This document shows, piece by piece, positions 17,430 to 38,227 of a stretch of DNA of 38,227 bases (position 1 is the first letter of the stretch; each line of letters begins with the position of its first letter). The stretch comes from Candidatus Zixiibacteriota bacterium. GTDB lineage: Bacteria; Zixibacteria; MSB-5A5; UBA10806; 4484-95. Both the position numbers and the translations under genes were made by a program. Below the pieces are notes generated by a model that did not search any database, had not been told where the DNA came from, and saw nothing but the letters and a program-made list of their open reading frames with translations. The stretch covers positions 1 through 38,227 of the forward strand of contig JAGGSN010000100.1 of the NCBI GenBank assembly GCA_021159005.1, in the 5' to 3' direction.

Positions 17430-17687
17430 ATCATATTCACCAGATTGCGGCTGATGTATGTCCACCGCCCACGAAAGTTCACCTCAGGCGAATACCAACC
17501 ATAAAAAGGGCGTATCCGCCAATGGCGGACGTCCCTACGCGAGTTAATTATAGAAAAAGATTGTTTTCTTGGCAATCCTCCCGGTCTTTGTGTCTGTTCC
17601 CCGCAATGATTGTTTGTTATCAATCTATTTAGAACACTTAATATTTGATAGTTCCTTTATCGACATTAATAAGAAATTTTACATCCA
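17430..17687. other. Intergenic region with repeat insertion in the peptidoglycan cluster
   Basis: These 258 bases separate the C39-like peptidase from the epimerase in an otherwise tightly overlapping gene run. They contain copy 2 of the GGGCGTATCC repeat (17508-17541). I see no gene. A new promoter for the epimerase-amidase pair could lie here. Confidence 0.5.
17508..17541. repeat. Dispersed repeat, GGGCGTATCCGYCAATGGCGGA family, copy 2
   Basis: Matches 263-296 over 34 bases with a few changes. TCCGCC (17515-17520) pairs exactly with GGCGGA (17524-17529) around AAT, making a stronger hairpin than in copy 1. Confidence 0.7.
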
Positions 17688-20741: not shown

Positions 20742-21065
20742 TGTTAATCCTTGTATTTTCCCATCTCCTTAGAATAATTTTGTTTAAAAAATTCAGATTA
20801 AATTTTAATAACAGACTCTCACCCAATCGGCTATTATTGCAAAATTTTCTGATTACCAAACGCCGCTTAGCAACCAGGGGCAACCGGCTTAGGAAGCTAT
20901 TAAATTGTCGGAATTGTCGGAAGCAGCTTCCAACAGCGCAAAATTTAAACTGAATAACCTCCTATTAACACAATATAAGATATATAACCTTTTGTTCCAA
21001 TAATCTATCATTTTTTTTATTTTATCGAAAATCTTCGTGATGTTGTTTGATGAAAAGGCGGCAGG
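20742..21065. other. Long leader region upstream of alr
   Basis: No gene is supported in these 324 bases. On the minus strand GGTTGC occurs twice 11 bases apart and ATTCCGACA/TTCCGACAA occurs in tandem, next to a small GGAAG/CTTCC hairpin. I recognise no known riboswitch or attenuator, and no clear promoter stands out. The AT-rich part nearest alr should hold its promoter. Confidence 0.4.
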
Positions 21066-22706
21066 CTAATAATTGGCCAGCAGATTATCATAGGTTTGAG
21101 GATTGCCTAAAACCATCCCAGCTTTAATTAGCTCAGGATGGGTTTTCAGCCAAACAAGTTCATAGGCTTTCCTTTTGCCCAATCCCTGAGTAATAAATGA
21201 TTCATATAAAATATCTTTTATCTGCGAATGCAAAGTGAGCATCTCCTTATCAGATTTTTTCTCGAGGATTTTTTTAATATCGTCAACATAACCGCTTAAA
21301 TTGTCTTTATTGAGCCAATCTTTGTTTTGGTCAACAAACTGGTCGAATGCGCTGAATTCCGGATTACGGTAAACATATTTTTTTTTCTCAATATAACCGA
21401 TGAATAGACTGACAATATCATCGCTTACTACAAAGTTTTCATCGATGTCAAGTTTCGGGCCATATTCAGCGACAAAATCGGTTACATAGCCCAAGGTATT
21501 GATATCATCCAAGAACGGCGGAGTTTCAAGACGATCAATATATATATCCGGGATAATGCCGCCGCCGCCAAAAACCGGCCGGCCCGATTTAGTATAGAAT
21601 AGTATATTTCTGTCTGAGTTTTCCGGTTTTGCTAAATTGCTTAGGGATGTATCTTTCTGAATGCACCTGTTTGAGGGCGTATAATATTTTGCCGTAGTCA
21701 GTTTAAGCGCCGAGTTATCGTCAAACTGCATTATCTGCTGGACAAGCCCTTTCCCATATGAGGTCGAACCTACAATAAGTCCCCGGTCATGATCCTGAAT
21801 TGCCCCGGCAACAATCTCGGCTGCCGAGGCAGTCTGGTCATCAATTACAATAACCAAGGGTCCTTTATTATAAATACCGCCCTCTCGGACTTTATATGTG
21901 CGCAGGGCAGCCGATCCCCTTCCCCTCGTTTCAACAATTTTGTCATCTTCATTTAAAAAAATTGACGCCAACTCGACAGCCTCATATAACAAGCCGCCAG
22001 GATTATTCTGCAAATCGATTATCAAGCCGCTGATTCCTTTATCCATCAACAATGAAATTAAAGATTCCACTTCCAGCGCTGTTCCCTCAGAAAATCTCGT
22101 TATCTTTATATAACCGTTATTATAGCTGTCAATACACCAGCAGGGAACAGGTTCTATATGGATATTTTCACGTGTAAATTCTATCTCTATATGTTTCGAG
22201 AAAAGAGGCCGCCAGAAATTTATAAACACTCGACTGTCTTTGTCGCCTCTCAATAAATCCCGGCACTCCGAGGCTGACAGACCTACAGCATCAAGGCTGT
22301 CTACTTTAATAATTCTATCGCCAACCCGGACATTCGAAGCAGCTGCTGGGCTTCCCTCAATTACCGAACTTACCCATACCGTATCGGAATGCTCTTCGAG
22401 TTCTATCCCGATGCCGATATATTCACCCTGCGTCTCCTTCATAAGATAATAATAATCCTGATCGGATAAATATCGGCTGTACTTGTCTAAATCTTTCATC
22501 ATGCCTTTGATGCTTGAATTTATCATCTTTTCGGGATCAAGAGGCAAAACATATCTGTCGGAAACGGTAATGGCTATTTTATCAAAAAGACGGATAAAAC
22601 TATAAAGGTCGTCATCGGATGCCCAGGCAAACCCGACTGCTAAACATAGTAAAAAAATAGGCCCGGTTAATATGCCGAGCTTATTTAATGAAGGTTTATT
22701 TATCAT
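21066..22706 (-). CDS. S41 family C-terminal processing peptidase with PDZ domain
   Basis: An exported serine protease of the CtpA/Prc group, 546 residues. A signal peptide or anchor covers residues 8-30. The PDZ domain spans about 95-168 (YIGIGIELEE...GDRIIKVDS). The S41 domain follows, with LQNNPGGLL and the catalytic S294 in QTASAAE and K319 in SYGKG, which form the usual Ser-Lys dyad. The C-terminal 170 residues form a helical extension that is longer than in minimal CtpA proteins. CtpA-type enzymes trim periplasmic or outer-membrane proteins, and some control murein hydrolases. That would fit the peptidoglycan genes downstream, but the link is inference. It lies 35 bases after tmk on the same strand. 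The ribosome-binding site is weak. Confidence 0.92.
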   Translation of the reverse strand: MINKPSLNKLGILTGPIFLLCLAVGFAWASDDDLYSFIRLFDKIAITVSDRYVLPLDPEKMINSSIKGMMKDLDKYSRYLSDQDYYYLMKETQGEYIGIGIELEEHSDTVWVSSVIEGSPAAASNVRVGDRIIKVDSLDAVGLSASECRDLLRGDKDSRVFINFWRPLFSKHIEIEFTRENIHIEPVPCWCIDSYNNGYIKITRFSEGTALEVESLISLLMDKGISGLIIDLQNNPGGLLYEAVELASIFLNEDDKIVETRGRGSAALRTYKVREGGIYNKGPLVIVIDDQTASAAEIVAGAIQDHDRGLIVGSTSYGKGLVQQIMQFDDNSALKLTTAKYYTPSNRCIQKDTSLSNLAKPENSDRNILFYTKSGRPVFGGGGIIPDIYIDRLETPPFLDDINTLGYVTDFVAEYGPKLDIDENFVVSDDIVSLFIGYIEKKKYVYRNPEFSAFDQFVDQNKDWLNKDNLSGYVDDIKKILEKKSDKEMLTLHSQIKDILYESFITQGLGKRKAYELVWLKTHPELIKAGMVLGNPQTYDNLLANY

Positions 22707-22741
22707 CGTTAGTTATTAAGCGGGTATTTTAATCTAAGACG

Positions 22742-23386
22742 CTACGTATTTTCAAATTCACTGATTACAATTTCTTGAATTTTCCGCTTAACAGTATTAA
22801 TATCGTCCTCGCCATTTACGACTTTAAATCTGTGCTTTTTATGTGTTAAAAGGCTGCTATTTCTTGTTGCAATCTGCAAATATCCCTGCCTGACTGTTTC
22901 AAAAAACTCGGTTCCTTCAGACTCTATCCGGTCGGTTTGTTTGCCGGTCAACTTAAGCCGTCTCAATGATTCGGCAACTGAAATATCTACTATAATTGTC
23001 AAATCGGGTTCGAGTCCGCCAGTCGAAAAATTATTTACGAATTCTACATCCTTAATTGGCAGACCTCTGCCATACCCTTGATAGGCAGTGGATGAATCAT
23101 AAAACCGATCACAGATAACTGTTTTGCCCGAATCATGCGCCGGTTTGATAACCTCCTCCACAACCTGCGCTCTCGCAGCATTATACAGTAAAAACTCAGT
23201 TAGCGGAAACATGCCGTCTGAACCTTTATCCAAAAGCAGTTTGCGTATTTTCTCCGATATCTCTGTCCCGCCAGGTTCGCGTAAAAGAAGGGTATTATAC
23301 CCCTTATCTTTTAAAAACTTTCCCAACAGCCGACACTGAGTGCTTTTGCCGGAAAAGTCTATTCCCTCAAAAGTAATAAACATCAT
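22742..23386 (-). CDS. tmk: Thymidylate kinase
   Basis: Phosphorylates dTMP to dTDP with ATP in the cytoplasm, needed for DNA synthesis. It is 214 residues, normal for the family. The P-loop is FEGIDFSGKSTQ (residues 6-17, with F where many homologues have G). The DRFYDSSTAYQGYGRG block binds the nucleotide base and phosphate, and LREPGGTEISEKIR is the DR/PGGT-type conserved segment. The gene begins with two adjacent ATGs overlapping the transporter stop by four bases (ATGA), and GAGAGGA precedes them. It sits between an EamA transporter and the S41 protease on one strand, a packed group with no obvious shared pathway. Confidence 0.96.
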   Translation of the reverse strand: MMFITFEGIDFSGKSTQCRLLGKFLKDKGYNTLLLREPGGTEISEKIRKLLLDKGSDGMFPLTEFLLYNAARAQVVEEVIKPAHDSGKTVICDRFYDSSTAYQGYGRGLPIKDVEFVNNFSTGGLEPDLTIIVDISVAESLRRLKLTGKQTDRIESEGTEFFETVRQGYLQIATRNSSLLTHKKHRFKVVNGEDDINTVKRKIQEIVISEFENT

Positions 23387-24249
23387 TGTCCTCTCTCAGA
23401 AAAAACCAACACCAGTGAAAAAATAATTATCACACCGCCAATTATAGCGCCAATAGTCGGATATTCGCTAAATATAAAAATAGCCCAAATCGAGGCGAGT
23501 ATCGGCTCGCCTACAATTGATAAACCGACTTTATGGGCCTTAACATGCCTTAAAGTATAATTATATAATGTATGCCCAACCAATGTCGGGCCGGCGGCAA
23601 GCAGGAAAAAATACCAATAATTTGATGACTGATATGATGCCCCGAATTCGCCCTTAACCATCACTATTATCCCCAATGTTAATGCTGCCATAGAGTAAGC
23701 TGTAAAGATATACGGCATAGTGCTTAATCTCGGGCGGACAATTCTACCGATAAACAGGTAGCAGCCAGCCATGACCGCTCCGGCTAATGCCAGCATATCG
23801 CCCCATAAATACTCTTTTTCAAGGCTGAAGTCAAATCCTGCGATTAAAATAGTGCCAATTATAGCGAGTATAATGGAAATTATACCTTTAAGCCCTGTCT
23901 TTTCCTTAAGAATTAAACTGGCTAAAATGGCTACATATACCGGTTGTGTTGTAACCAAAACCACCGAGGAGGCTATTGACGTATGATTTAATGATTCTAT
24001 CCAGAAAAAGAAATGCCAGCCGAGAAGCACTCCGGCAAGAGATGTAATCAGCAAAGAATATTTGGTAAACTCTCTGAAATTGCGGCGATAGACAGTCAGG
24101 ACAAATGGCAGAAGCATTACTGCGGCGAAAATCATCCTGTAAAATGCTATAATTGTGGCAGGAGCATCACAGGCTCTTATTAATATTGCTGCCCATGAAA
24201 CAGCGAAAACCGCAGGAATTAATGGCAGCCAGTTATTCTTTAGTTTCAC
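23383..24249 (-). CDS. EamA (DMT superfamily) inner-membrane transporter
   Basis: A 288-residue protein with ten predicted membrane helices arranged as two EamA repeats. The first repeat has AVFAVSWAAILIR and the FFWIESLNHTSIASSVVLVTTQPV block. The second has GHTLYNYTLRHVKAHKVGLSIVGEPILASIWAIFIFSEYPT. Proteins of this family export or import amino acids, nucleosides or other metabolites, and the substrate cannot be inferred from sequence. The start is a GTG two bases after the channel gene's stop, and the end overlaps tmk by four bases. Translation is therefore probably coupled across channel, transporter and kinase. Confidence 0.9.
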   Translation of the reverse strand: MKLKNNWLPLIPAVFAVSWAAILIRACDAPATIIAFYRMIFAAVMLLPFVLTVYRRNFREFTKYSLLITSLAGVLLGWHFFFWIESLNHTSIASSVVLVTTQPVYVAILASLILKEKTGLKGIISIILAIIGTILIAGFDFSLEKEYLWGDMLALAGAVMAGCYLFIGRIVRPRLSTMPYIFTAYSMAALTLGIIVMVKGEFGASYQSSNYWYFFLLAAGPTLVGHTLYNYTLRHVKAHKVGLSIVGEPILASIWAIFIFSEYPTIGAIIGGVIIIFSLVLVFSERGQ

Positions 24250-24251
24250 TT

Positions 24252-25247
24252 TCAGGCACTGCAGAATGATACAAGTTGTTCTAATTGCTCGGAGGTTCCA
24301 ACAAGTATCAGAGTATCGCCCGCCTCGATATAAAAATCGGGCGGCGGATTGTTATACATTTCTACCCCCTTCTTCTTAGCGGCAATAACCGTTATTCCCA
24401 ATTCCGACCTGATACCTGAATCCTTCAGGATAGTACCCTCTAATTTAGAACCGCTTTTAACGGCGATTTCCTCGATTCTCATACCTTCATCAGCGCCGCC
24501 GGAGGCTACTGTCATGAAATCGACAACGGCAGGTTTTATAGCCGCCTGAGCCATACGAACGCCAGCGGCAATATGCGGAGAAATAACTTTGGTGGCGCCG
24601 GCTCTTAATAATTTGTTGTAAACACTATCGTTATCAGCCCGTGATATTATAAATAAATCAGGGTTTAACTGCCGGGCTGATAGAGTTATATAGACCGCAT
24701 CAGCCTCCTCGGCAACAGTATTGATTAAAGCTGTTGCCCTTTCAATTCCCGCAATTTTAAGGTTCTCATCATCAGAGCTGCTGCCTTTAATATAAAAATA
24801 ATTATTTTTTTCTACCAACTCAATCATTTCAGCTGCACGTTCGATTACTACGAACGGAATATTATTCTGAGCCAGCTCGCCGCAAACAGCGCTGCCAACC
24901 CGTCCGAAACCGCATACTATGTAATGACCTTTAAGTTTGCCTATCTTTTTTATCATTTTCCTGCTCCCTAATATCTTTTGAAGGTGCCCATCTAAAATTG
25001 TATTGAATAAAAAACTAACGATAAATCCCCAGGAAGGGAAAACGCCAAATATCACAAAAAATATCGTAAATAGTTTGCCCCAATATGAAAGCGGATGAAC
25101 CTCATGAAAACCGATTGTAGCCATCGTTATGATGGTCATATACAGTGAATCAATTAAATCCCAGCCTTCGATAATCTTAAATCCGATGGTTCCAACAATA
25201 ACTACAGCCGGAAGAAAGAGAAATACTTTCCTTAATTTATTTTCCAT
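24252..25247 (-). CDS. Potassium-channel family protein with RCK (TrkA-N/TrkA-C) domains
   Basis: A two-helix pore channel with cytoplasmic regulator, 331 residues. The membrane helices are about residues 7-25 and 57-82. The pore loop between them reads TMATIGFHEVHP, where classic channels have TVGYGD. Gly-Tyr-Gly is replaced by Gly-Phe-His. The RCK N-domain begins with the Rossmann motif VCGFGRVGSAV (residues 111-121) and continues through IKGSSSDDENL. A TrkA-C domain occupies the last 80 residues (VKSGSKLEGTILKDSG...GDTLILVGT). The layout is MthK/Kch-like, and gating by a nucleotide or Ca2+ is plausible for the family. Ion selectivity is uncertain because of the altered filter. No clear ribosome-binding site precedes the ATG. 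Confidence 0.88.
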   Translation of the reverse strand: MENKLRKVFLFLPAVVIVGTIGFKIIEGWDLIDSLYMTIITMATIGFHEVHPLSYWGKLFTIFFVIFGVFPSWGFIVSFLFNTILDGHLQKILGSRKMIKKIGKLKGHYIVCGFGRVGSAVCGELAQNNIPFVVIERAAEMIELVEKNNYFYIKGSSSDDENLKIAGIERATALINTVAEEADAVYITLSARQLNPDLFIISRADNDSVYNKLLRAGATKVISPHIAAGVRMAQAAIKPAVVDFMTVASGGADEGMRIEEIAVKSGSKLEGTILKDSGIRSELGITVIAAKKKGVEMYNNPPPDFYIEAGDTLILVGTSEQLEQLVSFCSA

Positions 25248-25390
25248 TATATTTTATATCGGTTGTGCTAAGATTATTTTGACAAAATCGGGATTATAAA
25301 TAGACAATATTACATAACTTTGGCGCATTTTCATTGATAGTATCTGCAATCTTTTATAATCAACAAACTCTTTAATATTCTAATATTGTA

Positions 25391-26191
25391 TCACGCTTTT
25401 TTAAATGATGCTATAAGCTTGGAACCGGTTAGTTGATTGACCATATTATTCGTTTCTTTTTGAAGAATCGAATGGAGAACCCCCGGCCGGTCGGTGATAA
25501 TTCCATCAACTCCCATATCTATAAGATAGCTAAAAATATGTTCATTGTTAACAGTCCAGGCAAAAATAGGGATTTGTCTTAGATGAAAGTGTTTAATAAC
25601 AGCCGGAGTTATAATTTCATAATGAAAATGAGCCGAGTCGGCTTCGATTTTATCAAACAACAATGAAACTATAGGCCGCGCCAGCCTGTTGAGAAGAATA
25701 ACTTGTTCCTGTCCGATAATCCAGCCGGCTTTGAATCTATTGTCATAGTTTTTGATTTTTTTTATAATCCAAGGGAAAAATGATGAAATTATTACGCTAT
25801 CGACAAGACCAAACTCGTTTACCAAATCGACTACGTCTTTTTCGTATCCGCCCGCTTTTAGCTCGATATTAATATCCAATCGCCCGCCAAAATGCTCAAG
25901 CGTTTCATCAAGCATAGCTAACCTGTAGCCGTTTCTCTGGCAAGACTCTTGAAGTTTGGTGGAACTGGCATGTGAAACTAATTTGGGGATATTTGTGTCG
26001 GGAGAGCCGGCTGATGGAATGTTAACAGTCCAATCATGAAATAAAACCAGTTTACCATCGATAGTTTTGCGAACATCAAGTTCAATCATATCGGCATTTT
26101 CAGCTAAGGCTCTGTCGAATGACTCTAACGTATTGTCTGGTAAATATTCTGATGCTCCCCGATGAGCAATGTTTAGCACCTGATTTGCCAT
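25391..26191 (-). CDS. Glycerophosphodiester phosphodiesterase
   Basis: Hydrolyses glycerophosphodiesters to glycerol-3-phosphate and an alcohol. It is 266 residues with no signal peptide, so probably cytoplasmic, in the manner of UgpQ. GDPD motifs are all in place: H10-R11-G-A, DNTLESF, E37-L-D39 and H52-D53, with the later ELKAG segment (metal-binding Glu) and FAWTVNN plus DGIITDRPG at the C-terminal end of the TIM barrel. The C-terminal 25 residues (NNMVNQLTG...) extend past the domain. It lies 111 bases downstream of the inositol-phosphate synthase gene on the same strand, so it may act on glycerophosphoinositol or other lipid breakdown products. That is inference from position. Confidence 0.92.
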   Translation of the reverse strand: MANQVLNIAHRGASEYLPDNTLESFDRALAENADMIELDVRKTIDGKLVLFHDWTVNIPSAGSPDTNIPKLVSHASSTKLQESCQRNGYRLAMLDETLEHFGGRLDINIELKAGGYEKDVVDLVNEFGLVDSVIISSFFPWIIKKIKNYDNRFKAGWIIGQEQVILLNRLARPIVSLLFDKIEADSAHFHYEIITPAVIKHFHLRQIPIFAWTVNNEHIFSYLIDMGVDGIITDRPGVLHSILQKETNNMVNQLTGSKLIASFKKA

Positions 26192-26302
26192 AAGAACCCA
26201 AGGCCGGGATATTTATATAGCCCGGCGGCTCCGGTTAATTTATAAAATGAATTATCAGTATAATTTCTCTACAACCTTATACTGGTTAATACCGAGTTTT
26301 TT

Positions 26303-27478
26303 CTATTCTGTCTTGGTTTTCAGTATATCCTTGACTCTGCTTTTACTGTCCGGAATTTCTTTTAATACTTTCACTTTCTTTTCTTTTTCATCAGTATCGG
26401 CAGCAACAGCATATTTGGCTATAAATTCCTCGGTTTTTTCAAGAGCTTTGGCATCGGTGTACTGTTCCGGCGGCGATTTCATAAAGTATGACGCCGGTCC
26501 GTACATTGTGCCGGACAGATTATGGTCAAGCCCCAGCTTGCAGCATCTGACCGCATCAATAACAACGCCGGCGGAATTAGGTGAATCCCAGACCTCAAGC
26601 TTGAGTTCGGCATTTAACGGCACATTGCCAAAAGTTGTTCCCTCAAGGCGGATATGCGCCCATTTGCGGTCGGTCAGCCAGGCGACATAATCAGAGGGGC
26701 CTATATGGACATTATTTTTTCCAATATCATAATCAAGTTGTGAGGTAACAGCGTTGGTTTTTGAAATCTTTTTCGATTCAAGCCGGCTTCTTTCGAGCAT
26801 GTTTAAGAAGTCTGTATTGCCGCCAACATTAAGCTGACTGGTTCTTTCCAAACGAACGCCGCGTTCGCGGAACAGACGGGTCAAAATACGATGAATGATT
26901 GTAGCTCCGACCTGCGATTTAATATCATCGCCAATCATCGGCAAACCGCGTTTTTTAAATCTTTCCTGCCAGTATTGCTCGCGGGCAATAAAAACCGGTA
27001 TACAATTAACAAAACCACAGCCAGCATCAAGTATTTGCTCGACATACCACTTTGTTGCCTCTTCCGAGCCAACAGGTAAATAGCTGACAACTACATCCGT
27101 TCCGGTATCTTTTAATATCTTAACGATGTCGGCGGTTGGTCCGGGTGCTTTTTCAATTATCTCAGACAGATATTTGCCTAAGCCGTCATGGGTCATACCT
27201 CGTTCGACTTTCACGCCGAGATTGGGCACATCGCTGAATTTATAAGTATTATTAGGCTTGGTAAAAATCGCCTCAGACAGGTCTTTGCCAACTTTATTTT
27301 TATCGATATCAATGGCGGCAGAAAACTCAATGTCGGAGATATGATAACCGCCTAAATTAACATGCATTAAACCGGGCACAAATTCATCATCTTTGGCATT
27401 TTTATAGAACTCAACACCCTGAACGAAGGATGAGCAACAATTACCTGCTCCTATTATTCCAACTCTAACTTTTCCCAT
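26303..27478 (-). CDS. ino1: myo-Inositol-1-phosphate synthase
   Basis: Converts glucose-6-phosphate to 1L-myo-inositol-1-phosphate with NAD as internal redox cofactor. It is 391 residues, the compact prokaryotic form. The Rossmann motif is [13 protein letters not shown] (residues 6-18). Family blocks follow: [26 protein letters not shown], the lysine-rich [19 protein letters not shown] and [14 protein letters not shown]. The last 40 residues are a charged tail ([12 protein letters not shown]...). The gene starts 19 bases after the CDP-alcohol phosphotransferase, with GGAG before the ATG, so the two are almost certainly one operon feeding inositol phosphate into phospholipid. Together they indicate that this bacterium makes inositol lipids, or soluble inositol compounds such as compatible solutes. 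Confidence 0.95.
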
Positions 27479-27497
27479 AATTACTCCATTATGTTAA

Positions 27498-28133
27498 TTA
27501 TTCATTATCTAAAGATTCCATTTTTTTCTTTACATGGATAATTCTTTGCAAGACTGTTATATGAGATACAATAGCCACAAACCATAATACAATGATTATC
27601 AGCAAATGTTCCACTCCGAATATAGTTTTAAACAACCACCCTAATAGCCCATCAAAAATTGCCGCACCGGCAACATATGTAATACGTTCGGGTCTTTGCA
27701 TAAAACCGACTTTGCAATCTATTTTTAAGGCGCCGGCTCTGGCGCGCATATAGGACGTTAGAAGCGAACCCGTAAGAGCCAGAACAATAAGCACATAGAT
27801 ATACAGTTGGTCGAAATAAATCGCAATGCCAAGAAAAATTACTATATCGCTATAACGGTCGATAGCTGAATCGAAAAAAGCCCCAAATTTGCTTTTTTGA
27901 TCGTTCCTTCTGGCAATTTGGCCATCAAGCACATCGCAAGTGCCGGCAATAACCAAAAAGATACCCCCGATAAAGAATGAGCCAAGTCTGAAAAAATTAG
28001 CTGCAAATATTGTAAAAAACAAACCAGCCCAGGTAATCGTATTGGGATGGATGCCAGACTTAACAAACCCCTCAATGATAGGTTCTATTACCTTAAAGTA
28101 ACCCTTTACAAATTTATCGCCAATTAAGTTCAT
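27498..28133 (-). CDS. CDP-alcohol phosphatidyltransferase, probable phosphatidylinositol-phosphate synthase
   Basis: An integral membrane enzyme of 211 residues with about six helices. The family signature D-x2-DG-x2-AR-x8-G-x3-D-x3-D is perfect: CDVLDGQIARRN, then KFGAFFDSAIDRYSD. It moves a phosphatidyl group from a CDP-diacylglycerol-type donor to an alcohol. Because the very next gene makes myo-inositol-1-phosphate, that compound is the most likely acceptor, giving phosphatidylinositol phosphate as in actinobacterial PIP synthases. A PgsA- or archaetidyl-type activity cannot be excluded from sequence. A promoter candidate (TTGACT, 17 bases, TATTTT) lies directly upstream, and GGTG precedes the ATG. 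No phosphatase for the PIP product is nearby. Confidence 0.88.
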   Translation of the reverse strand: MNLIGDKFVKGYFKVIEPIIEGFVKSGIHPNTITWAGLFFTIFAANFFRLGSFFIGGIFLVIAGTCDVLDGQIARRNDQKSKFGAFFDSAIDRYSDIVIFLGIAIYFDQLYIYVLIVLALTGSLLTSYMRARAGALKIDCKVGFMQRPERITYVAGAAIFDGLLGWLFKTIFGVEHLLIIIVLWFVAIVSHITVLQRIIHVKKKMESLDNE

Positions 28134-28152
28134 AATTCACCACCAAGTTCGT

Positions 28153-28181
28153 AAAATATTAAGCAATACAATTAAAGTCAA
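28153..28181 (-). promoter_or_regulatory. Promoter of the inositol-lipid operon
   Basis: On the minus strand TTGACT (28176-28181), exactly 17 bases, then TATTTT (28153-28158), with 19 bases from there to the ATG. It is back to back with the promoter at 28232-28260. Confidence 0.6.
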
Positions 28182-28231
28182 GTAAAATTAATCCCTAAAA
28201 ATATTCATGAAAAACTCCCAATCATCAATTA

Positions 28232-28260
28232 TTGACTTGTTATTGCCGTGAAGTTATAAT
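28232..28260 (+). promoter_or_regulatory. Near-consensus promoter of the HMG-CoA-reductase-like gene
   Basis: TTGACT (28232-28237), exactly 17 bases, then a perfect TATAAT (28255-28260). CGGAG follows at 28285-28289, five bases before ATG 28295. It is the best sigma-70-type promoter seen in the window. Confidence 0.7.
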
Positions 28261-28294
28261 TGCTAATGATGATTTAATTAATAACGGAGTCTAA

Positions 28295-29644
28295 ATGAAT
28301 CAAAAAAACAGAATAACTGATGAGGCTGCCTTAATCCTGTATTCAGGAGGAATTCCTCCCTGGAAAGTAGAATCATATTTATCAGAAAAATATAATTTAT
28401 TGCCGCCTGATAATTACTGCCAAGCCGCCATTGCTCGCAGAAAATTCCTTGAACAGAAAACGAGCATGAAATTTAAATATCTGCCTCTGCCGGAAAAGCC
28501 ATATCTGCTTAATTATCACTGCGATAATTGCGATATTAATTACCAGCTTGCCGCCTATGATGAAAACAAGACTTGCTCATTATGTGGTCAATCGCTGACG
28601 CTTTTGGAACCTCAGAAACAGCATCAATTAACGGCAAATTATATCGGCGGAGTTGATGATTACTATTCATTTTGCGGCGCTATAAAAGTTACGGGCGATA
28701 TCGAAAAAGAATTTATAGGGATATTGCAGTATGGTACCGGATTGGGGCCGATTGGCGTAAATAGAGGAGCGTTTTTAATCAACCGTTATGGCGGCGCAAA
28801 GGTTGTGATTACCGAATCAACTCGAGCCTGCCGTAATCTGGGATATATTTTCATAGATGAAATAACGCGTCGAAAGGCAATGAAAACAGTTGAATCTTTT
28901 CTTCCTGCTATTCGCAGTCAGATGAATCAACTGCTAAAGAGATGGGGAGCTGAGGTTTCTTTTGTTGAGATATTGCCGGTAGAGAATATGGGGAAACCGT
29001 ATCTTTTCATAGATTTCACTGCTGATTTCAAACACTTTCGAGGGCATGGCGCCATAAGCAAAGCTGTCGGACTGGCCAAAAAACTGCTCGACGAAAAACT
29101 GAAAGCGGAAAATATTCACTATGATTTAAGCGGTATTACCCAGGGCTATGATGGCGATTTAAAGCCATCACCGAGAAACAAACGCGGCCGTTATAGTATG
29201 GCAAAAACATCTATACCGGCATCAGAAATCGAGAAAATCATCGGTAAGTCGGCGGATAAATTTATTGATTTTATTAACATGGATAGCAAGGGGACCGAAA
29301 AGCTCGGTTGGTTCGGTCATACCGGTATGGGCGGCGAAATTATTGCCGGCATCTACAAAGCCGCTAAAATTAATCCCCATGCGCCGTTGGTTTCCTCAAC
29401 CCAGAAAATATTCTGTTTCAGGGAAAATGACAATATAGTTTACGGGATTGAATTGCCCAATGTTGAAGCGGGAACATTTTCTTCATCGGAGGGAGCGGTA
29501 CCGCCATTAGGCAGGGAGATGATGCAGTTTATGGGAATTAGCAATTCGCGGGAATATGCTGCCTATACAGCCGCCTTTGTGCTTGCGGGTGAGCTGAATC
29601 TCTCAATTGAGATAGTCCGAGAAAACCTGTATCGGTCGGAATAA
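28295..29644 (+). CDS. Divergent HMG-CoA-reductase-like protein with inserted zinc ribbon, probably not a normal reductase
   Basis: 449 residues, alignable by eye with class I HMG-CoA reductases along the whole length. The helical N-domain (IPPWKVESYLS, then ARRKFLEQKT) matches the IRRxFLE region. VNRGAFLINRYGGA (155-168) matches the STNRGCKAI-x3-GGA block. GDLKPSPRN (287-295) matches the DKKPAAxN lysine loop. LPNVEAGT, AVPP and VLAGELNLS (388-437) match the C-terminal blocks. A C4 zinc ribbon (C76, C79, C94, C97) sits between the N-domain and the catalytic core. Lysine K290 is kept. The catalytic Glu aligns with T148, the Asp with N360, the C-terminal His is absent because the protein ends early, and the NADPH-site GDAMGMN is not present. 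A different reaction or a binding role is likely. Strong promoter, CGGAG ribosome-binding site. Divergent from the inositol-lipid operon. Confidence 0.75.
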   Translation: MNQKNRITDEAALILYSGGIPPWKVESYLSEKYNLLPPDNYCQAAIARRKFLEQKTSMKFKYLPLPEKPYLLNYHCDNCDINYQLAAYDENKTCSLCGQSLTLLEPQKQHQLTANYIGGVDDYYSFCGAIKVTGDIEKEFIGILQYGTGLGPIGVNRGAFLINRYGGAKVVITESTRACRNLGYIFIDEITRRKAMKTVESFLPAIRSQMNQLLKRWGAEVSFVEILPVENMGKPYLFIDFTADFKHFRGHGAISKAVGLAKKLLDEKLKAENIHYDLSGITQGYDGDLKPSPRNKRGRYSMAKTSIPASEIEKIIGKSADKFIDFINMDSKGTEKLGWFGHTGMGGEIIAGIYKAAKINPHAPLVSSTQKIFCFRENDNIVYGIELPNVEAGTFSSSEGAVPPLGREMMQFMGISNSREYAAYTAAFVLAGELNLSIEIVRENLYRSE

Positions 29645-29811
29645 CCTGTTTGATAAATTTAAGCTGTTTTTTTAGGAAGTTTTATTACCTTAACTATTGA
29701 CTATTCCTTTAAATACAATAAATTACTTGTTCAATTTGAAGATTGCCGCAGGTGTTTATGCCTGTTTAAATTGAATTTGCAGGCAATTGATTAGTAATAG
29801 GATAATATGAA

Positions 29812-29840
29812 TTGACTGAAAATACAAATAACCTTATGCT
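29812..29840 (+). promoter_or_regulatory. Candidate promoter of the tig-clpP-clpX operon
   Basis: TTGACT (29812-29817), exactly 17 bases, then TATGCT (29835-29840). The AAGGAGGA of tig follows at 29873-29880. The rest of the 239-base gap after the HMG-CoA-reductase-like gene shows nothing distinctive. Confidence 0.55.
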
Positions 29841-29883
29841 GAATAAAACAGTCTGGGTTTGATTTCCTCAAAAAGGAGGATTA

Positions 29884-31134
29884 TTGAAAATTACCGTTAA
29901 AAGCGAACCTAATTGTAAAAAAATTCTCGAAATTGAGGTTCCAAGAGAAGATTTTGAGACTGAATTTCAGAAACAGCTTCTTCAATATCGCTCTGAAGCT
30001 AAAATCCCTGGCTTTCGACCGGGCAAAGCGCCAAAAGAAATAATTGAAAAAAGGTTTTCGGATAATATCAAGGCGGATGCTCTCGAATCTTTATTGCCTA
30101 AGGCATATAATGAGGCTATTGCTCAGGAAAATTTAAACCCTATCAGCCAACCGATAATATCCGAAGTTAAATCCGATGATAGTCAGCCGATTTCATTTAA
30201 GGTTCAAATTGAAATTAAACCGGAAATCAACCTGAAAGAATATACCGGACATTCATTTGAAAGGAAAGTTAGGGAAGTCACTGATACCGATATTGAGGAA
30301 ACGTTAAAACAGCTTCAGGATAGATATGCCGAATTTATTCCGGTCGAACGCAAATGCCACAATGAAGATATGGTAATTGTTGACCTTATAAAAAAACATG
30401 ACAAGCTTGGCAAAGTCGAAAAAGATAAACTGGAAAATGTCGAAATTGATTTAAGCGGCGATTCGGTTTTGAAAGAGTTTAAAGATGGCTTGCTGGGTAT
30501 GGGTATCGGTGAAATGAAAGAGATAGAGGTGAATTACCCTGATGATTATTCCGATAAGCAAATGGCAGGCAATGAAGTGCGGTATATGGCCATAGTTAAG
30601 GAGGTCAAGGAAAAAAAATTGCCGCCGCTTGATGACGAATTTGCTAAAAATTACCTCCAAGTAGATACTGTCGAGGAGCTTAAGAAAACAATTAAAGAAA
30701 GCCTAATCAAAAAAGCCGATGATGATGCTGACATTTCGTTAAAAAGCAGTATTATTAAATATACCGTTGAAAACAATAAGTTTGAAGTACCTGAATCGCT
30801 TGTTGAAAAATATGTAGAATCTGTAACTGAAGATTTTAAGAAAAAGAACAAAGATGTCGATGAATTAGAATTAAGGCAGAGTTGTCGGCCGATGGGTGAG
30901 GATTTCTATCGCTGGCAATTTATATACCTTGAAATTGCCGAGAAAGAGTCAATTAAAGTTACTGAAAGTGATAGAACCGAATGGATAGAACAGTTCGCCA
31001 AGGCATACAACATGTCTGAAAAAGTTGCCCGCGAAACTTTGGGAAGAGCGGGAAAATTTGACGATATCGATGATTCATTACTTGAGAAAAAAGTTCTTGA
31101 TTTTATTAAGGATAACTCAAACATTACTGCATAG
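29884..31134 (+). CDS. tig: Trigger factor
   Basis: Ribosome-bound chaperone with peptidyl-prolyl isomerase activity that meets nascent chains. It is 416 residues, slightly shorter than the E. coli protein. The N-terminal ribosome-binding domain has the signature IPGFRPGKAPKEIIEKRF (residues 42-59). The FKBP-like domain is about 155-240 (MVIVDLI...LGMGIGEMKEIEVNYP). The remainder is the helical arms domain. The start is a TTG three bases after a strong AAGGAGGA at 29873-29880, and no ATG candidate fits as well. It begins the classic tig-clpP-clpX arrangement, with clpP only 22 bases away, so synthesis of the chaperone and the protease is probably joined. Confidence 0.96.
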   Translation: MKITVKSEPNCKKILEIEVPREDFETEFQKQLLQYRSEAKIPGFRPGKAPKEIIEKRFSDNIKADALESLLPKAYNEAIAQENLNPISQPIISEVKSDDSQPISFKVQIEIKPEINLKEYTGHSFERKVREVTDTDIEETLKQLQDRYAEFIPVERKCHNEDMVIVDLIKKHDKLGKVEKDKLENVEIDLSGDSVLKEFKDGLLGMGIGEMKEIEVNYPDDYSDKQMAGNEVRYMAIVKEVKEKKLPPLDDEFAKNYLQVDTVEELKKTIKESLIKKADDDADISLKSSIIKYTVENNKFEVPESLVEKYVESVTEDFKKKNKDVDELELRQSCRPMGEDFYRWQFIYLEIAEKESIKVTESDRTEWIEQFAKAYNMSEKVARETLGRAGKFDDIDDSLLEKKVLDFIKDNSNITA

Positions 31135-31156
31135 CAGAATATAGCAAGGAGAGAGT

Positions 31157-31762
31157 ATGACTGAGCCAAAAATGCAGACTTTAATTCCGATGGTAGTCGA
31201 ACAAACGGGCCGAGGCGAACGCGCCTATGATATTTATTCGCGGTTGTTAAAAGACCGTATCGTATTTGTCGGTACCCCTATTGATGATAATATCGCTAAT
31301 CTTATTGTTGCCCAGTTGTTGTTTCTTGATGCGGAAGATCCGGAGAAAGATATTTTCCTGTATGTTAACACGCCGGGCGGTTCGGTAACTGCCGGCTTAG
31401 CTATTTATGACACTATGCAGTTTATCAAAGCCGATGTTAATACTACCTGCGTTGGGATGGCGGCATCCATGGGAGCTCTTTTGCTATGCGCCGGCGAACA
31501 CGGTAAAAGAGCTGCCTTGAGAAACTCCCGAATTATGATACATCAGCCATGGGGCGGTTTTAAAGGACAAGCATCGGATATTGAAATTCATGCCAAAGAG
31601 ATAGTTGATACTAAAAAACAGCTTAATGAAATCCTTGCCAAACATACTGGACAGGATTTTGAATCTATTGTAAGGGATACCGATAGAGACAACTTTATGT
31701 CTGCTGAAGAGGCCAAGGCTTACGGGCTTGTTGATGAGGTATTTGAACGCAGACCCAAATAA
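31157..31762 (+). CDS. clpP: ATP-dependent Clp protease proteolytic subunit
   Basis: The barrel-shaped serine peptidase that works with ClpX. It is 201 residues. The catalytic triad has the canonical spacing: S104 in [11 protein letters not shown]129 in IMIHQPWGG and D178 in [19 protein letters not shown] (residues 70-80) is the substrate-binding strand block. GAGAG before the ATG, continuing an AAGGAG stretch, supports the start. An N-terminal propeptide-like stretch ([16 protein letters not shown]) precedes the conserved [12 protein letters not shown] segment and is likely trimmed. It lies between tig and clpX with gaps of 22 bases on each side. Confidence 0.98.
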
Positions 31763-31784
31763 ACTAAAGTAGTAGAAGTAATAA

Positions 31785-33038
31785 ATGAATAAAAAAAGTA
31801 ATAGCTCTTCAAAAAAACGACCGCTTAAAGAACGGTGCAGTTTCTGCGGCCGAGCGGTAAATTCCGGTATGGAACTTATCAATGCGCCAAATGCCTCAAT
31901 CTGCTCGGATTGCGTGCATGTTTGTTATGATCTCCTCAATCAAAAAACCTGGACTGGGGAGAGAATCGATGTTCCTACGCCAAAAGAAATTAAAGAGTTC
32001 CTTGATGATTATGTCATCGGTCAGGAAAAAGCCAAGCGAACTTTAGCCGTTGCTGTTTATAATCATTATAAAAGAATGCTGAATCCAAGTTCACCCGAGG
32101 ATGGTATCGAGCTTGAAAAAGCCAATATTCTGCTGGCTGGACCAACCGGAACCGGTAAAACTCTATTAGCGCAGACATTAGCCAAGATGCTTAAAGTGCC
32201 GTTTACTATTGCCGATGCCACTGTATTAACCGAGGCTGGTTATGTTGGCGAGGATGTGGAAAATATATTAGTTAGGCTTCTTCAGTCTGCCAATTATAAT
32301 GTCGAGGCGGCTCAGAGGGGGGTTGTCTATATCGATGAAATCGACAAAATCGCCCGACGCAGCGCCAATCCCTCTATTACACGTGATGTCTCCGGCGAAG
32401 GTGTTCAGCAGGGGCTTTTGAAAATTCTCGAAGGAACTATCGCCGCGGTGCCGCCAAAAGGCGGAAGAAAACACCCCGAACAGGATTTAATTAAAATAGA
32501 TACTAAAAATATTCTTTTTATCTGCGGCGGCGCATTTGATGGTCTTGAAAAAATTATCGCCAGAAGGCTCGGCCGGAAAGTTGTCGGATTTAAGGCGGAA
32601 AATAAAGCTGTCGGCAATAGAATAGGCAAATTGCTAGAGGATATTAAAGACAAAGACCTGCTGGAATATGGATTAATCCCCGAAATAATCGGCCGACTGC
32701 CGGTAGTGTGTTCCCTTAGCGAACTTGATAAAAAAGCGCTTAAGATGATATTAACCAAGCCTAAAAACGCTTTGGTTAAACAATACAAGTATTACTTCAA
32801 GCTCGAGGATATTGAACTGGTTTTTGAGGACGAAGCTTTAGATGCGATAATCGAACAGACGCAAAAACATGACACCGGCGCGCGCGCTCTTCGGTCTATA
32901 GTCGAATCAGCCATGATGGAAGTAATGTACGAGGCGCCATCGTTATTAGATTTGCAAAAATGTATCGTTACTAAGGATTCAATTATTACCGGCAGTAAGC
33001 CCAAGTACGTTTATAAGCAGAAAAAAAAGAGGGCATAG
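31785..33038 (+). CDS. clpX: ATP-dependent Clp protease ATPase subunit ClpX
   Basis: AAA+ unfoldase that feeds substrates to ClpP. It is 417 residues. The N-terminal zinc-binding domain has four cysteines, C18, C21, C40 and C43, spaced C-x2-C-x18-C-x2-C. Walker A is GPTGTGKT (119-126) and Walker B is VYIDEIDKI (181-189). [11 protein letters not shown] (152-162) is the pore-1 loop (GYVG), and IIGRLPVV follows in the sensor/adaptor region. The IGF loop that docks on ClpP is replaced here by the sequence near [12 protein letters not shown], where VGF fits the expected position. The short basic tail (YKQKKKRA) is ordinary. No lon gene follows, unlike in many bacteria. engB comes next. Confidence 0.98.
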
Positions 33039-33079
33039 ATAAGTATTAATTATCTTTAGCCTTACGGAAGCCGTTCCCC

Positions 33080-33682
33080 ATGCAGTTTAAAAACGCTGAT
33101 TACACAGCTTCATATTATAACTTGTCCGATATTCCCAAAACGGGTTATCCTGAGATTGCTTTTGCAGGCCGGTCGAATGTTGGCAAGTCGAGCTTGATTA
33201 ATAAAATCTTAAACCGTAAAAAACTTGCTCAGGTTTCAAAAACCCCCGGTAAGACAAAGGCTTTGAACTATTTTGAAATCGATAGAAAATATTATTTTGT
33301 CGACCTGCCTGGTTTCGGCTATGCTCATGTATCTAAAAAAGAACGCGATTCATGGGGTGAATTAATCGAGGCGTATCTCAGTAAGTCAAATAATCTCAAA
33401 GGGATAGTGCATATAATAGACAGCCGGCGGGGAATAATGGAGATAGATATTTCTTTGGTCAACTTTGTAAATTATCTTTATCGCGAACATCAAATCGACT
33501 TAAAAATGTTGTGGATTCTTTCCAAATCTGATAAATTGAAGAGTAAGGCTAAAAGCGATGTTTATAAAAAAGCCTTGCAGGATTTACAATGCGATCCAGG
33601 CCAATTGATTTTCTTTTCAACAACTAACGGTCAGGGCGTAACGGAAGTGAGAAAATTAATTATGGAGATGTTGATTAAATGA
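33080..33682 (+). CDS. engB: Ribosome-biogenesis GTPase EngB/YsxC
   Basis: GTP-binding protein needed for 50S ribosomal subunit assembly. It is 200 residues. All G motifs are present: G1 GRSNVGKS (30-37), G2 around TPGKTKALNYF, G3 DLPGFGYA (75-82) and G4 SKSDK (148-152, where TKxD is the more common form). The EngB-specific AFAGRSNVGKSSLIN and SKTPGKTK blocks leave little doubt. The gene follows clpX after 41 bases and overlaps purA by four bases (ATGA). The engB position after clpX or lon is conserved in many bacteria, so this belongs to the same transcription unit. Confidence 0.96.
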   Translation: MQFKNADYTASYYNLSDIPKTGYPEIAFAGRSNVGKSSLINKILNRKKLAQVSKTPGKTKALNYFEIDRKYYFVDLPGFGYAHVSKKERDSWGELIEAYLSKSNNLKGIVHIIDSRRGIMEIDISLVNFVNYLYREHQIDLKMLWILSKSDKLKSKAKSDVYKKALQDLQCDPGQLIFFSTTNGQGVTEVRKLIMEMLIK

Positions 33683-34962
33683 AAAAGAGAAACTTAACTA
33701 TCCTCGGATTGCAATGGGGAGATGAGGGTAAGGGAAAAGTTGTTGATTATTTCGCAGCTGGCGTCGATATCGTAGTCCGTTTCGGCGGCGGCGCCAATGC
33801 CGGTCATACTGTAGTGAATGAAAATGACAAATTCATACTTCACCTGCTCCCCTCCGGCATCCTTCACCCTAAAGTAAAATGTTATATGGGCGGCGGTATG
33901 GTTGTAGACTTGCTCGATTTGTTTAAGGAACTTGAAGAAATAAAAGCCAAAGGAATAAAATATGAGAAGAGGCTGTTTATCGACCATACAACCCATCTGG
34001 TTCTTCCGCAGCATAAGGCTATTGAAAAATATATTGAAAGCCTAAATAAATCCTCATCGATAAACACTACTATGAAAGGCATCGGACCAACTTATTCTGA
34101 CAAAGCTAACCGCATCGGCATAATTGCAAGCGATATTATTGAAGAGAAACATTTATTAGATAGGATAGCCAATTTCATTCTAAAAAGAAGTCTGGATTTG
34201 GTTGCAGTTAATGATAAATCGCTTAAAATTCCCCGCAATCTATTAGAGTATCTAAAAAAATATAGCCCGCAAGTAAGGGATATGCTTGTGGATACTCCTT
34301 TTGAACTGAGAAAAGCAATTAAAGAGAATAAACGGATACTTTTTGAGGGTGCCCAGGGTTCCCTTTTGGATATTGATTTAGGCACATATCCATATGTAAC
34401 ATCCTCTAATACGACAATCGGCGGTTTATTCACCGGGACAGGCATGCCGCCCGGAGTGCAGGGAGAAGTTCTGGGTGTGGTTAAGGCTTACACTACGAGA
34501 GTCGGCAATGGTCCATTCCCCACCGAGCTTGATAACGATATCGGTGAAAATCTTCGCGAAAAAGGCGGCGAATACGGAGCTACAACCGGCCGGTCCCGAC
34601 GGACAGGCTGGCTCGATTTGGCGCTTGTTAAGCGAACCGCTTATATGTCGGGAGTTTCCAAACTTATTGTTACCAAGCTTGATGTTTTGGACGGACTTGA
34701 CGAGATTAAAATCTGTATAGGGTATTATTATAATAGCAAGCTCTATGATTTCCCGCCGCTATATAGTTCTTTTATGGAAAAAGTCGAACCTTTGTATCAT
34801 ACAGTCAAAGGCTGGAAAAAACCAACTGCCGGAATTACTGATTTTGATCAGCTTCCCGATGAAGCGAAACATTATATAAATTTCATAGAGAAAAATACCG
34901 AAGTTCCGGTAGGCTATATTTCAACAGGCTCAGACCGAAAAGACTTTATCGAAATCGCTTGA
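33679..34962 (+). CDS. purA: Adenylosuccinate synthetase
   Basis: Joins IMP and aspartate with GTP to form adenylosuccinate, the first step from IMP to AMP. It is 427 residues, normal for the family. The GTP/IMP loop LGLQWGDEGKGK (residues 9-20) carries the catalytic aspartate. GGANAGHTV (residues 37-45) carries the catalytic histidine. Further family blocks are TTMKGIGPTYSDKANRIG, FEGAQGSLLDIDLGTYPYVTSSN, and TTGRSRRTGWLD. The ATG overlaps the engB stop. Its presence at the end of the tig-clp-engB unit couples purine supply to growth genes only by position. No purine regulatory element is recognised. Confidence 0.97.
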   Translation: MKKRNLTILGLQWGDEGKGKVVDYFAAGVDIVVRFGGGANAGHTVVNENDKFILHLLPSGILHPKVKCYMGGGMVVDLLDLFKELEEIKAKGIKYEKRLFIDHTTHLVLPQHKAIEKYIESLNKSSSINTTMKGIGPTYSDKANRIGIIASDIIEEKHLLDRIANFILKRSLDLVAVNDKSLKIPRNLLEYLKKYSPQVRDMLVDTPFELRKAIKENKRILFEGAQGSLLDIDLGTYPYVTSSNTTIGGLFTGTGMPPGVQGEVLGVVKAYTTRVGNGPFPTELDNDIGENLREKGGEYGATTGRSRRTGWLDLALVKRTAYMSGVSKLIVTKLDVLDGLDEIKICIGYYYNSKLYDFPPLYSSFMEKVEPLYHTVKGWKKPTAGITDFDQLPDEAKHYINFIEKNTEVPVGYISTGSDRKDFIEIA

Positions 34963-35041
34963 TAGGGAATGGTGTTTTACTCTAATATTAAGCTAAGATG
35001 TTTGGTATAGGGAATTGTCAATATTTCGCAGGATATGCAAG

Positions 35042-36391
35042 ATGAATAAGTTTTTCGCTTTTAAAGTTTTGCTTCAGGTATTGTGCTTAATATGTTTGCT
35101 GCCAAGTGTTCCGGTTCTCGGACAATTGCCGAACAATCAGCTTAGCCTTCGGGAGGCAGTTGATAAGGCTTTTTCAGTTGATAATAACTTGATGGCCGCC
35201 GGCTCAAATCTCAAGTCATCAAAATATAATATCAAAAAGGCAAAGGCATCATATATGCCGGCGCTTACGTTTGCCGGAAGTTATTATCATATGTCTAATG
35301 TCAGCGAAATCAGTGTAGGTATGCCCGGAACCGGTTTTAATGAGACCATTAAGATGGGTTCAGACACACCGTTCAATGCCAATCTTGGATTAAACTATGA
35401 ACTTTATACGTTTGGACGCCGGCCAGCGAATGTGCAGCTTGCCAAGCTTGAAACAAACAGATCCGAATTGAATTACAGCTTTTCTAAGAAAATCCTTTTT
35501 GATAAAACAGCCAGAGCGTATTTTACTGTTGTTTATGCTAAAGGAAGCATGAACCTTATTCAAGCGGAAAAAGATAGATTTGAACAAATATATCAGCTTG
35601 TAGATAGCCGGTTTAAGCAGGATTTAATATCGGAATTCGATCTTCTGCAAACACAGTTAAGGCTGGAAAAATATAAACTATCACTACTGGAAATTTCAAA
35701 CAACCTGCAAACAGCTAAGCTTAATTTAGCGCGGCTGTTGGGAGTTCCAAAAAGCGATTTGCCCGAACTTGCAGATGATATCGGAGAAAACATTCTTGAA
35801 TTGCCGAAATTTGTCGTTCGAGCTAATCTATTGGCTAATCGCGAGGATTACCTTGAGGCATCTCTGGCAATAAAGATGGGGCAGGCTGCCAAGAAAATCA
35901 GCAAAAGCGCATATTACCCCTCTATAACAGGGTTTGGCGCTTATGATTGGCGCAACGGCTATCAACCGGATGTCGAAAATATTGAGGGCAATTTCTCATT
36001 TGGCGTTAAACTGAATTGGCTCTTATTTCATGGCTTTGCCCGTAGAGCCGAGATTTCAAAACAGGATTATTTAATCAAGTCGTATGGTTATATGGTAGAA
36101 GACTTGAAAACCGTAATACCGAACCAGATCAACAGCCTGCAGTTGATAGTGGAAAACAGCAAATCAAGAATTGAGGTCGGCGCTCAGGCTTTACAGGTTG
36201 CGCAAAAATCGATGGCTATTGCCAGAATGCGATTAGAAATCGGCGATATTACAATGATTGACTTGCTGGAGATAGAGAATAATCTTTCGCAGGCAGAGCT
36301 GAATTTGATAAAGTTAAATTATGGATATGTCATGGCAAAACTTGACTATAAAAAAGCTTGTGGTTATTATCCTGAAATAGAACAGTATTAA
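35042..36391 (+). CDS. TolC-family outer-membrane efflux protein
   Basis: A trimeric outer-membrane channel subunit, 449 residues from the chosen ATG at 35042, which has CAGGA eight bases upstream. The frame is open back to TTG 35015 without a ribosome-binding site. A signal peptide covers about 27 residues, ending near VPVLGQ. Two OEP repeats follow: LSLREAVDKAFSVDNNLMAA begins the first, and the AALAIKMGQ-like EASLAIKMGQAAKKISKSAYYPSITGFGAYDWRNG region the second. Both contain the long coiled-coil helices (SRFKQDLISEFDLLQTQ; ARMRLEIGDITMIDLLEIE). No inner-membrane pump or adaptor gene is adjacent in this window, so the partner complex is unknown. It follows purA after 79 bases, probably with its own promoter. 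Confidence 0.9.
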   Translation: MNKFFAFKVLLQVLCLICLLPSVPVLGQLPNNQLSLREAVDKAFSVDNNLMAAGSNLKSSKYNIKKAKASYMPALTFAGSYYHMSNVSEISVGMPGTGFNETIKMGSDTPFNANLGLNYELYTFGRRPANVQLAKLETNRSELNYSFSKKILFDKTARAYFTVVYAKGSMNLIQAEKDRFEQIYQLVDSRFKQDLISEFDLLQTQLRLEKYKLSLLEISNNLQTAKLNLARLLGVPKSDLPELADDIGENILELPKFVVRANLLANREDYLEASLAIKMGQAAKKISKSAYYPSITGFGAYDWRNGYQPDVENIEGNFSFGVKLNWLLFHGFARRAEISKQDYLIKSYGYMVEDLKTVIPNQINSLQLIVENSKSRIEVGAQALQVAQKSMAIARMRLEIGDITMIDLLEIENNLSQAELNLIKLNYGYVMAKLDYKKACGYYPEIEQY

Positions 36392-36571
36392 ATGATATAT
36401 TTATACGTAATGAAATCGAATCATTTTATCAAGATATGCTGAAATTGCCCGAATAATTTAATGAAAACGCTTGCCTGATTTTAATTTATGGCTTAAATAA
36501 CAGGCAGAATAATATTGCAATTATAATTGTGATTGCAAATAAATAATTTTGATAAAACAACAGGAGGGAGT
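36392..36571. other. Upstream region of the OmpA-family gene
   Basis: AT-rich 180 bases without a gene. It contains an operator-like inverted repeat, TTGCAAT-N10-ATTGCAA, at 36515-36538, about 33 bases before the OmpA start codon. TATAAT (36522-36527) lies within it. Confidence 0.45.
36515..36538. promoter_or_regulatory. Operator-like inverted repeat upstream of the OmpA-family gene
   Basis: TTGCAAT (36515-36521) and ATTGCAA (36532-36538) are exact complements with centres 17 bases apart. TATAAT between them may be a -10 element, in which case a bound protein would block the polymerase. No matching -35 is clear, so the promoter itself is uncertain. Confidence 0.4.
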
Positions 36572-38065: not shown

Positions 38066-38098
38066 TTTAGTATCAATTAAAGATACCTGAAAAAATAA

Positions 38099-38142
38099 GG
38101 GCGTATGCAGTTTCATACAACTTGCATCACGCCCTTTATTTT
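38099..38142 (+). terminator. Intrinsic terminator after the OmpA-family gene
   Basis: GGGCGT-ATGCA (38099-38109) pairs with TGCAT-C-ACGCCC (38123-38134), leaving one bulged C, and is followed by TTTATTTTA. The GGGCGTATGC arm also resembles the dispersed GGGCGTAT repeats, so a repeat may have been taken over as a terminator. Confidence 0.65.
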
Positions 38143-38173
38143 ATGAAATATTAATTCGGATTCTACAATTGAA

Positions 38174-38210
38174 ATCACTACTGTCCGGCCTTTTGTCCGC
38201 CTTAGGCGGA
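38174..38210. repeat. Repeat fragments at the right edge
   Basis: CACTACTGTCCGGCCTT is close to the reverse complement of 211-226 at the left edge. TCCGCCTTAGGCGGA (38196-38210) is a palindrome nearly identical to the core of 3675-3689. Confidence 0.6.
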
Positions 38211-38227
38211 TGCTATAGTGATGTCAT

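Follow-up and report, generated by a model that had tools for sequence, protein, structure and literature searches.

Introduction

Few enzymes have been studied as thoroughly as HMG-CoA reductase (HMGR), which is blocked by statins and is a major drug target. To our knowledge, every described use of the HMGR fold is an NAD(P)H-dependent reduction of a thioester, and FcrA is the single recent example in which the substrate has changed. FcrA is a relative of class I HMGR found in haloarchaea and bacteria that reduces fatty acyl-CoA, and its four catalytic residues, its C-terminal helix and its use of NADPH are all preserved (PMC11948995). In this study, we analyzed a gene for an HMGR-like protein in a 38,227-nucleotide stretch of DNA (the window), which is contig C100 of a metagenome-assembled Zixibacterial genome of 3.66 Mb (241 contigs, 97% complete). 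A preliminary description had proposed that the gene stands for a new family that uses the reductase fold for another acyl-CoA reaction or as a regulator or scaffold. We find a homologue of class I HMGR that combines a strictly conserved active-site pocket with replacement or loss of the catalytic residues, and we favor, at a probability of about 0.55, the reading that a class I HMGR-like gene has been turned, in a third deep lineage of this fold, into a non-reductase enzyme that uses the old pocket and may act on a CoA thioester.

Results

The gene encodes a distant homologue of class I HMGR

The open reading frame, at 28295-29644 on the plus strand with its stop codon included, is intact, as the preliminary description had said, and encodes 449 amino acids that are assigned to the HMGR fold by profile and structure matches. 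A promoter-like site, TTGACT-N17-TATAAT, lies at 28232-28260 on the same strand, in the intergenic gap directly upstream and 34 bases before the ATG, which is itself preceded by GGAG. This site had been called the best promoter in the window. It does match 11 of 12 consensus positions and stands just upstream of the gene, but three other sites within the scanned positions 20000-38227 tie with it, and such sites are frequent there by chance (74 found versus 51 expected).

The protein matches PF00368 (HMG-CoA reductase) with 48.5 bits against a gathering threshold of 27 (E 8.4e-13); all six family members match this profile, and all are above the cut-off in genome searches. It also matches TIGR00533 (E 1.5e-15), but with 57.1 bits against an equivalog cut-off of 441.8 it falls below the score of NADPH-dependent class I HMGRs. 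The best solved relative by sequence is the archaeal class I enzyme 6hr7 (E 2.5e-11, or 1.4e-14 with the family profile), and profile-profile comparison (hhalign) gave 99% with an E value of 2.5e-18 over 353 columns. An AlphaFold2 model built with HMGR outgroups in the alignment (pLDDT 81.6) matched HMGRs at the top of a Foldseek search (E 9e-20) with TM-scores of 0.6-0.7; with every HMGR removed from the alignment the pLDDT was 72.4, and HMGRs still came first (E 2.3e-17) with TM-scores of ~0.4-0.46. The top-ranked matches of both predicted models were HMGRs only. Three active-site loops (287-292, 335-343 and 396-400) are predicted with pLDDT values below 50, so the geometry of the new pocket cannot be drawn. 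By its profile matches and its predicted fold, the protein is a distant but unambiguous class I HMGR homologue, as the preliminary description had supposed.

A maximum-likelihood tree recovered the family as monophyletic with 100/100 support; its stem measures 4.33 changes per column, versus 3.83 for the class II stem. Class I sampling in this tree was small, and for that reason the exact sister group is provisional. On the best reading, the family represents a third deep lineage within the HMGR fold.

Catalytic and cofactor residues are replaced

We mapped residues onto human HMGR after checking every letter of its sequence against 1dq8, and three MAFFT modes agreed on the map. Catalytic Glu559 corresponds to Thr148, Lys691 to Leu289 and Asp767 to Asn360. 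His866 has no counterpart because the protein ends (residues 429-449, 29579-29641) where HMGR carries this residue and Asn870/Arg871. Human His752, Asn755 and Lys735 are likewise replaced, by Met345, Glu348 and Asp330, and these three substitutions together with Thr148, Leu289 and Asn360 are identical in all five full-length members. The preliminary description had placed the Glu and Asp replacements, the early termination and the loss of the GDAMGMN motif correctly. It had also taken Lys290 for the one surviving catalytic residue; that role is ruled out, as Lys290 aligns with the substrate-site residue Lys692. Catalytic Lys691 aligns with Leu289, and therefore no catalytic residue remains.

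The changes fall in segments that can be followed along the plus strand. The N-terminal helical region (residues 21-56, 28355-28462), IPPWKVE...ARRKFLE, matches the class I N-domain and carries Trp23 at the place of human Tyr479. The equivalent of the Glu559 loop, QYGTGLGPIGVNRG (residues 145-158, 28727-28768), has Thr148 for Glu559 and keeps Arg157 (Arg568). In the cis-loop, ITQGYDGDLKPSPRNKRGRY (residues 281-300, 29135-29194), Leu289 stands for Lys691 between two retained residues, Asp288 (Asp690) and Lys290 (Lys692). A remodelled pocket wall follows at residues 330-366 (29282-29392), with Asp330 for Lys735, Met345 for His752, Glu348 for Asn755, Lys358 for Gly765, Asn360 for Asp767 and His362 for Ala769. 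Arg180 (Arg590) and Leu436 (Leu853) are also kept.

The changes extend to the NADPH site. The equivalent of GDAMGMN (residues 246-256, 29030-29062) reads (F/Y)RGHG, with the RGHG at 249-252 invariant; the equivalent of the second cofactor motif GTVGGGT, ELPNVEAGTFSSSEGAVPPLGRE (residues 386-408, 29450-29518), has its glycines replaced; and Asn870/Arg871 are absent, in five of five full-length members. Gly656 is the only NADPH contact kept family-wide. At the CoA-contact positions Arg568 alone is kept, and no counterpart of Ser565, Arg571 or Lys722 remains. The invariant Trp23 takes the place of human Tyr479, the residue stacked on the CoA adenine (PMC7503714). Of seven CoA-site positions tested, two are compatible with CoA binding.

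An insert at about residues 69-110 (28499-28624) follows the N-terminal helices and precedes the catalytic core of the large domain. Its two CxxC pairs, Cys76/Cys79 and Cys94/Cys97, are present in the window protein and three Zixibacterial relatives, and the insert may bind zinc in these four members, although its matches to Pfam zinc ribbons are weak and below the cut-off. The C4 zinc ribbon described before the core is accordingly found in the Zixibacterial proteins, but Cys79 is Asn or Asp in the two distant members, L012 and L013, which retain three of the four cysteines, so a C4 ribbon does not define the family.

The old pocket is conserved beyond background

Invariant columns number 137 of 449 across the five full-length members, and they are concentrated in the old active site: 10 of 11 HMG-binding or catalytic positions are invariant, versus 116 of 360 other aligned columns (32%; Fisher p 1.2e-4). 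In the Glu559 loop 11 of 14 columns do not vary, and in the cis-loop, which includes Lys290, the figure is 18 of 20; Thr148 and Asn360, whose conservation the preliminary description had wished to see surveyed, are invariant throughout. Of the 41 columns that are invariant in the class I set, the family retains 11 and has switched and fixed another 17, and it varies at the other 13. New charged residues have become fixed at Asp286, Arg294, Lys296, Glu335, Lys336, Glu348, Lys355, Lys358, His362, Glu386, Glu391 and Glu399, and at Arg249 and His251 in the motif that replaces GDAMGMN. The old pocket is invariant beyond background and its cis-loop carries new fixed charged residues, which argues for retooling rather than decay. 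Such a pattern would be expected of an enzyme that has acquired a new active site, although a tight ligand-binding site would fit it too. Since the catalytic residues are swapped or lost while the old pocket is the most strictly conserved part of the protein, a different job is probable. Selection on the gene, previously argued in part from its promoter, is borne out by the relatives instead (dN 0.26-0.52, dS saturated).

Distribution of the family and genomic context

The family is known from six members, five of them full length. Orthologues with 63-73% identity occur in three further genomes of the phylum (G011, G020 and, split over two contigs, G033), which with the source genome makes 4 of 132 phylum genomes; none were found among these 132 in the closer relatives within the window's own family or order. 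Two distant members, at 51% and 48% identity, each come from a genome that is the sole sampled member of its phylum, and repeated sampling across the domain returned the same two each time. Intact frames thus occur in three phyla at 48-73% identity. No relatives were found in plasmid, phage and viral-contig collections, and a global scan of genome contigs returned three Zixibacterial loci only, because the peptide patterns used were lineage-specific. This scattered distribution points to horizontal transfer or repeated loss. We found no description of such a family in the open-access literature.

The source genome separately encodes a canonical class II HMGR-mevalonate kinase fusion (L006, G000:C12:26369-27484; 335 bits in the family score), and the HMGR-like protein is therefore a second, different protein. 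The fusion adjoins a type 2 isopentenyl-diphosphate isomerase (both were named from sequence inspection), and the genome also has the DXR of the MEP route. The fusion is present in all eight Zixibacterial genomes tested, four with and four without the HMGR-like gene. Two genomes, G132 (59% complete) and G232 (89% complete), have the HMGR-like gene and no other HMGR, and G232 has DXR of the non-mevalonate route. The C-terminal domain of HMG-CoA synthase (PF08540) was not detected in any of the four Zixibacterial genomes, though this model also fails on some archaea in which the enzyme is expected.

No neighbor gene recurs across the six loci compared, and the neighbors indicate no pathway. In the window the neighbors are inositol-phosphate synthase, a CDP-alcohol transferase and trigger factor/ClpP/ClpX (ClpP and ClpX from sequence inspection), and at the other loci they include ketol-acid reductoisomerase, an M23 peptidase, a histidine kinase, an alanine racemase-like protein and an Omp85 protein or ABC transporter. 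A putative CDP-alcohol transferase beside L012 that would match the window neighbor was dropped, as it had no Pfam match. A DUF1844 gene (L023, 10564-10944) lies directly downstream of the G132 copy and was not found beside other members. Elsewhere in the window, positions 25391-28133, divergent from the HMGR-like gene, hold inositol-phosphate synthase beside CDP-alcohol phosphatidyltransferase together with a glycerophosphodiester phosphodiesterase, and these genes likely serve inositol phospholipid synthesis. A minus-strand run at 14672-20741 (Amidase_3, an enolase-superfamily epimerase-like protein, a C39-like peptidase, NlpC/P60 and alanine racemase) is peptidoglycan related and suggestive of murein peptide recycling.

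Discussion

The loss of the catalytic and NADPH residues, the fixation of their replacements and the presence of a canonical HMGR elsewhere in the genome support a new family of the HMGR fold with another function, much as the preliminary description had anticipated. In the mechanism that we propose, an ancient class I HMGR-like gene would have given rise to an enzyme that has given up the NADPH-dependent reduction of HMG-CoA. The protein probably still forms an HMGR-type dimer, with the pocket located where the large domain of one subunit meets the small domain of its partner. In place of the former hydride-transfer set (Glu, Lys, Asp, His and the NADPH motifs) there would be a fixed polar set made up of Asp286, Asp288, Lys290, Arg294, Glu335/Lys336, Glu348, Lys358, Asn360 and His362, to which the partner subunit would add Arg249 and His251. 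Such a pocket could hold a small anionic substrate through Arg180, Asp288 and Lys290 and act on it by non-redox acid-base chemistry. A CoA thioester is one candidate, with its adenine on Trp23 and a phosphate on Arg157. Another acyl-CoA reaction, as first suggested, is accordingly possible, with two compatible CoA-site positions in its favor and the loss of Ser565, Arg571 and Lys722 against it. The more specific version of this reading, a third deep branch of the superfamily, distinct from both class I/FcrA and class II, with a dimer-interface pocket, a non-redox reaction new to the fold and the partner-subunit RGHG in place of the NADPH site, we hold more tentatively, at a little under an even chance.

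Other explanations deserve consideration. The old pocket could bind a metabolite such as an acyl-CoA or a sugar phosphate without catalysis, with the zinc ribbon passing the signal to a protein partner or a nucleic acid. Such a sensor or scaffold would account for the disappearance of all four catalytic residues and the cofactor motifs, for an insert conserved in the four Zixibacterial members and for a solitary gene that has a promoter-like site to itself and lacks conserved enzyme neighbors; high conservation could also mark a non-catalytic site for a ligand or partner. We nevertheless consider it unlikely, and the earlier suggestion of a regulator or scaffold less likely than an enzyme, because conservation is highest in the old active-site pocket. 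Its loops, with their many fixed charges, go beyond what a simple sensor usually needs; the ribbon lacks one cysteine in L012 and L013, and no DNA-binding domain was recognized by Pfam. Somewhat more doubtful still is a role like that of FcrA, as an acyl-CoA reductase with a different catalytic set and a different hold on the nicotinamide cofactor. FcrA demonstrates that class I relatives can move to fatty acyl-CoA reduction (PMC11948995), and Trp23, Arg157, Arg180, Asp288 and Lys290 preserve parts of the CoA and substrate sites, but FcrA made this move with its four catalytic residues and C-terminal catalytic helix in place (PMC11948995), whereas here these are missing, along with both NADPH motifs and Asn870/Arg871.

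A non-redox enzyme on the old pocket also has to be weighed against two further explanations. A regulatory pseudoenzyme subunit that assembles with the class II HMGR-mevalonate kinase of the same genome would fit the presence of that fusion in the four Zixibacterial genomes that have the gene. We regard it as very improbable, given that the four genomes tested without the gene have the fusion as well, that G132 and the more complete, DXR-containing G232 carry the gene with no other HMGR, and that the homology is to class I rather than class II. Lost catalytic residues and a shortened C terminus might equally be read as a decaying paralogue or an annotation artefact, but intact frames in three phyla, a dN of 0.26-0.52 beside saturated dS and 137 invariant columns leave this with next to no credibility, and the conservation pattern rules out a decaying pseudogene.

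If our preferred reading of a retooled, non-reductase enzyme is true, the HMGR fold can support other chemistry after the catalytic and nearly all cofactor residues have been lost and new ones fixed in the pocket. The family would also serve as a warning that Pfam or InterPro matches of such genes are not grounds for a mevalonate-pathway annotation.

Comparison with known systems places the family apart from each of them. It shares with class I HMGR (6hr7, 1dq8) the overall fold, the N-domain IPxxK(V/L)E...RR, an N-x-(I/V)G element, the RG after the Glu559 loop, the equivalents of Arg590, Asp690 and Lys692, and GE-x-x-L near the C terminus. Unlike class I HMGR, it is without Glu559, Lys691, Asp767 and His866, has Lys735, His752 and Asn755 changed and GDAMGMN and GTVGGG replaced, has no C-terminal catalytic helix, and carries a zinc-ribbon-like insert of ~40 residues. 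The class II HMGR domain of L006, fused to mevalonate kinase, belongs to the same superfamily and the same genome, but it is canonical and lies far away in the tree, across two stems of ~4 changes per column each. An HMGR-like protein of Sinorhizobium (L046) resembles the family in being an HMGR relative outside mevalonate genes, and in a short KGRY stretch that is free of the three-residue insert, but it keeps the aligned catalytic Glu, Lys, Asp and His. Its gene (457-1698, on a plasmid, annotated as HMG-CoA reductase) lies between genes for an acyl-CoA carboxylase beta subunit and a biotin carboxylase, a context that suggests a substrate other than HMG-CoA. FcrA is similar in being related to class I HMGR, in serving a different function and in having an additional N-terminal region, and it too is found without the mevalonate pathway in some genomes. 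It differs in its insert and in having the Glu/Lys/Asp/His set and the C-terminal helix, of which our family keeps neither a single catalytic residue nor the helix. Judged by its sequences, the family described here goes further than FcrA, in that the hydride-transfer apparatus itself is gone.
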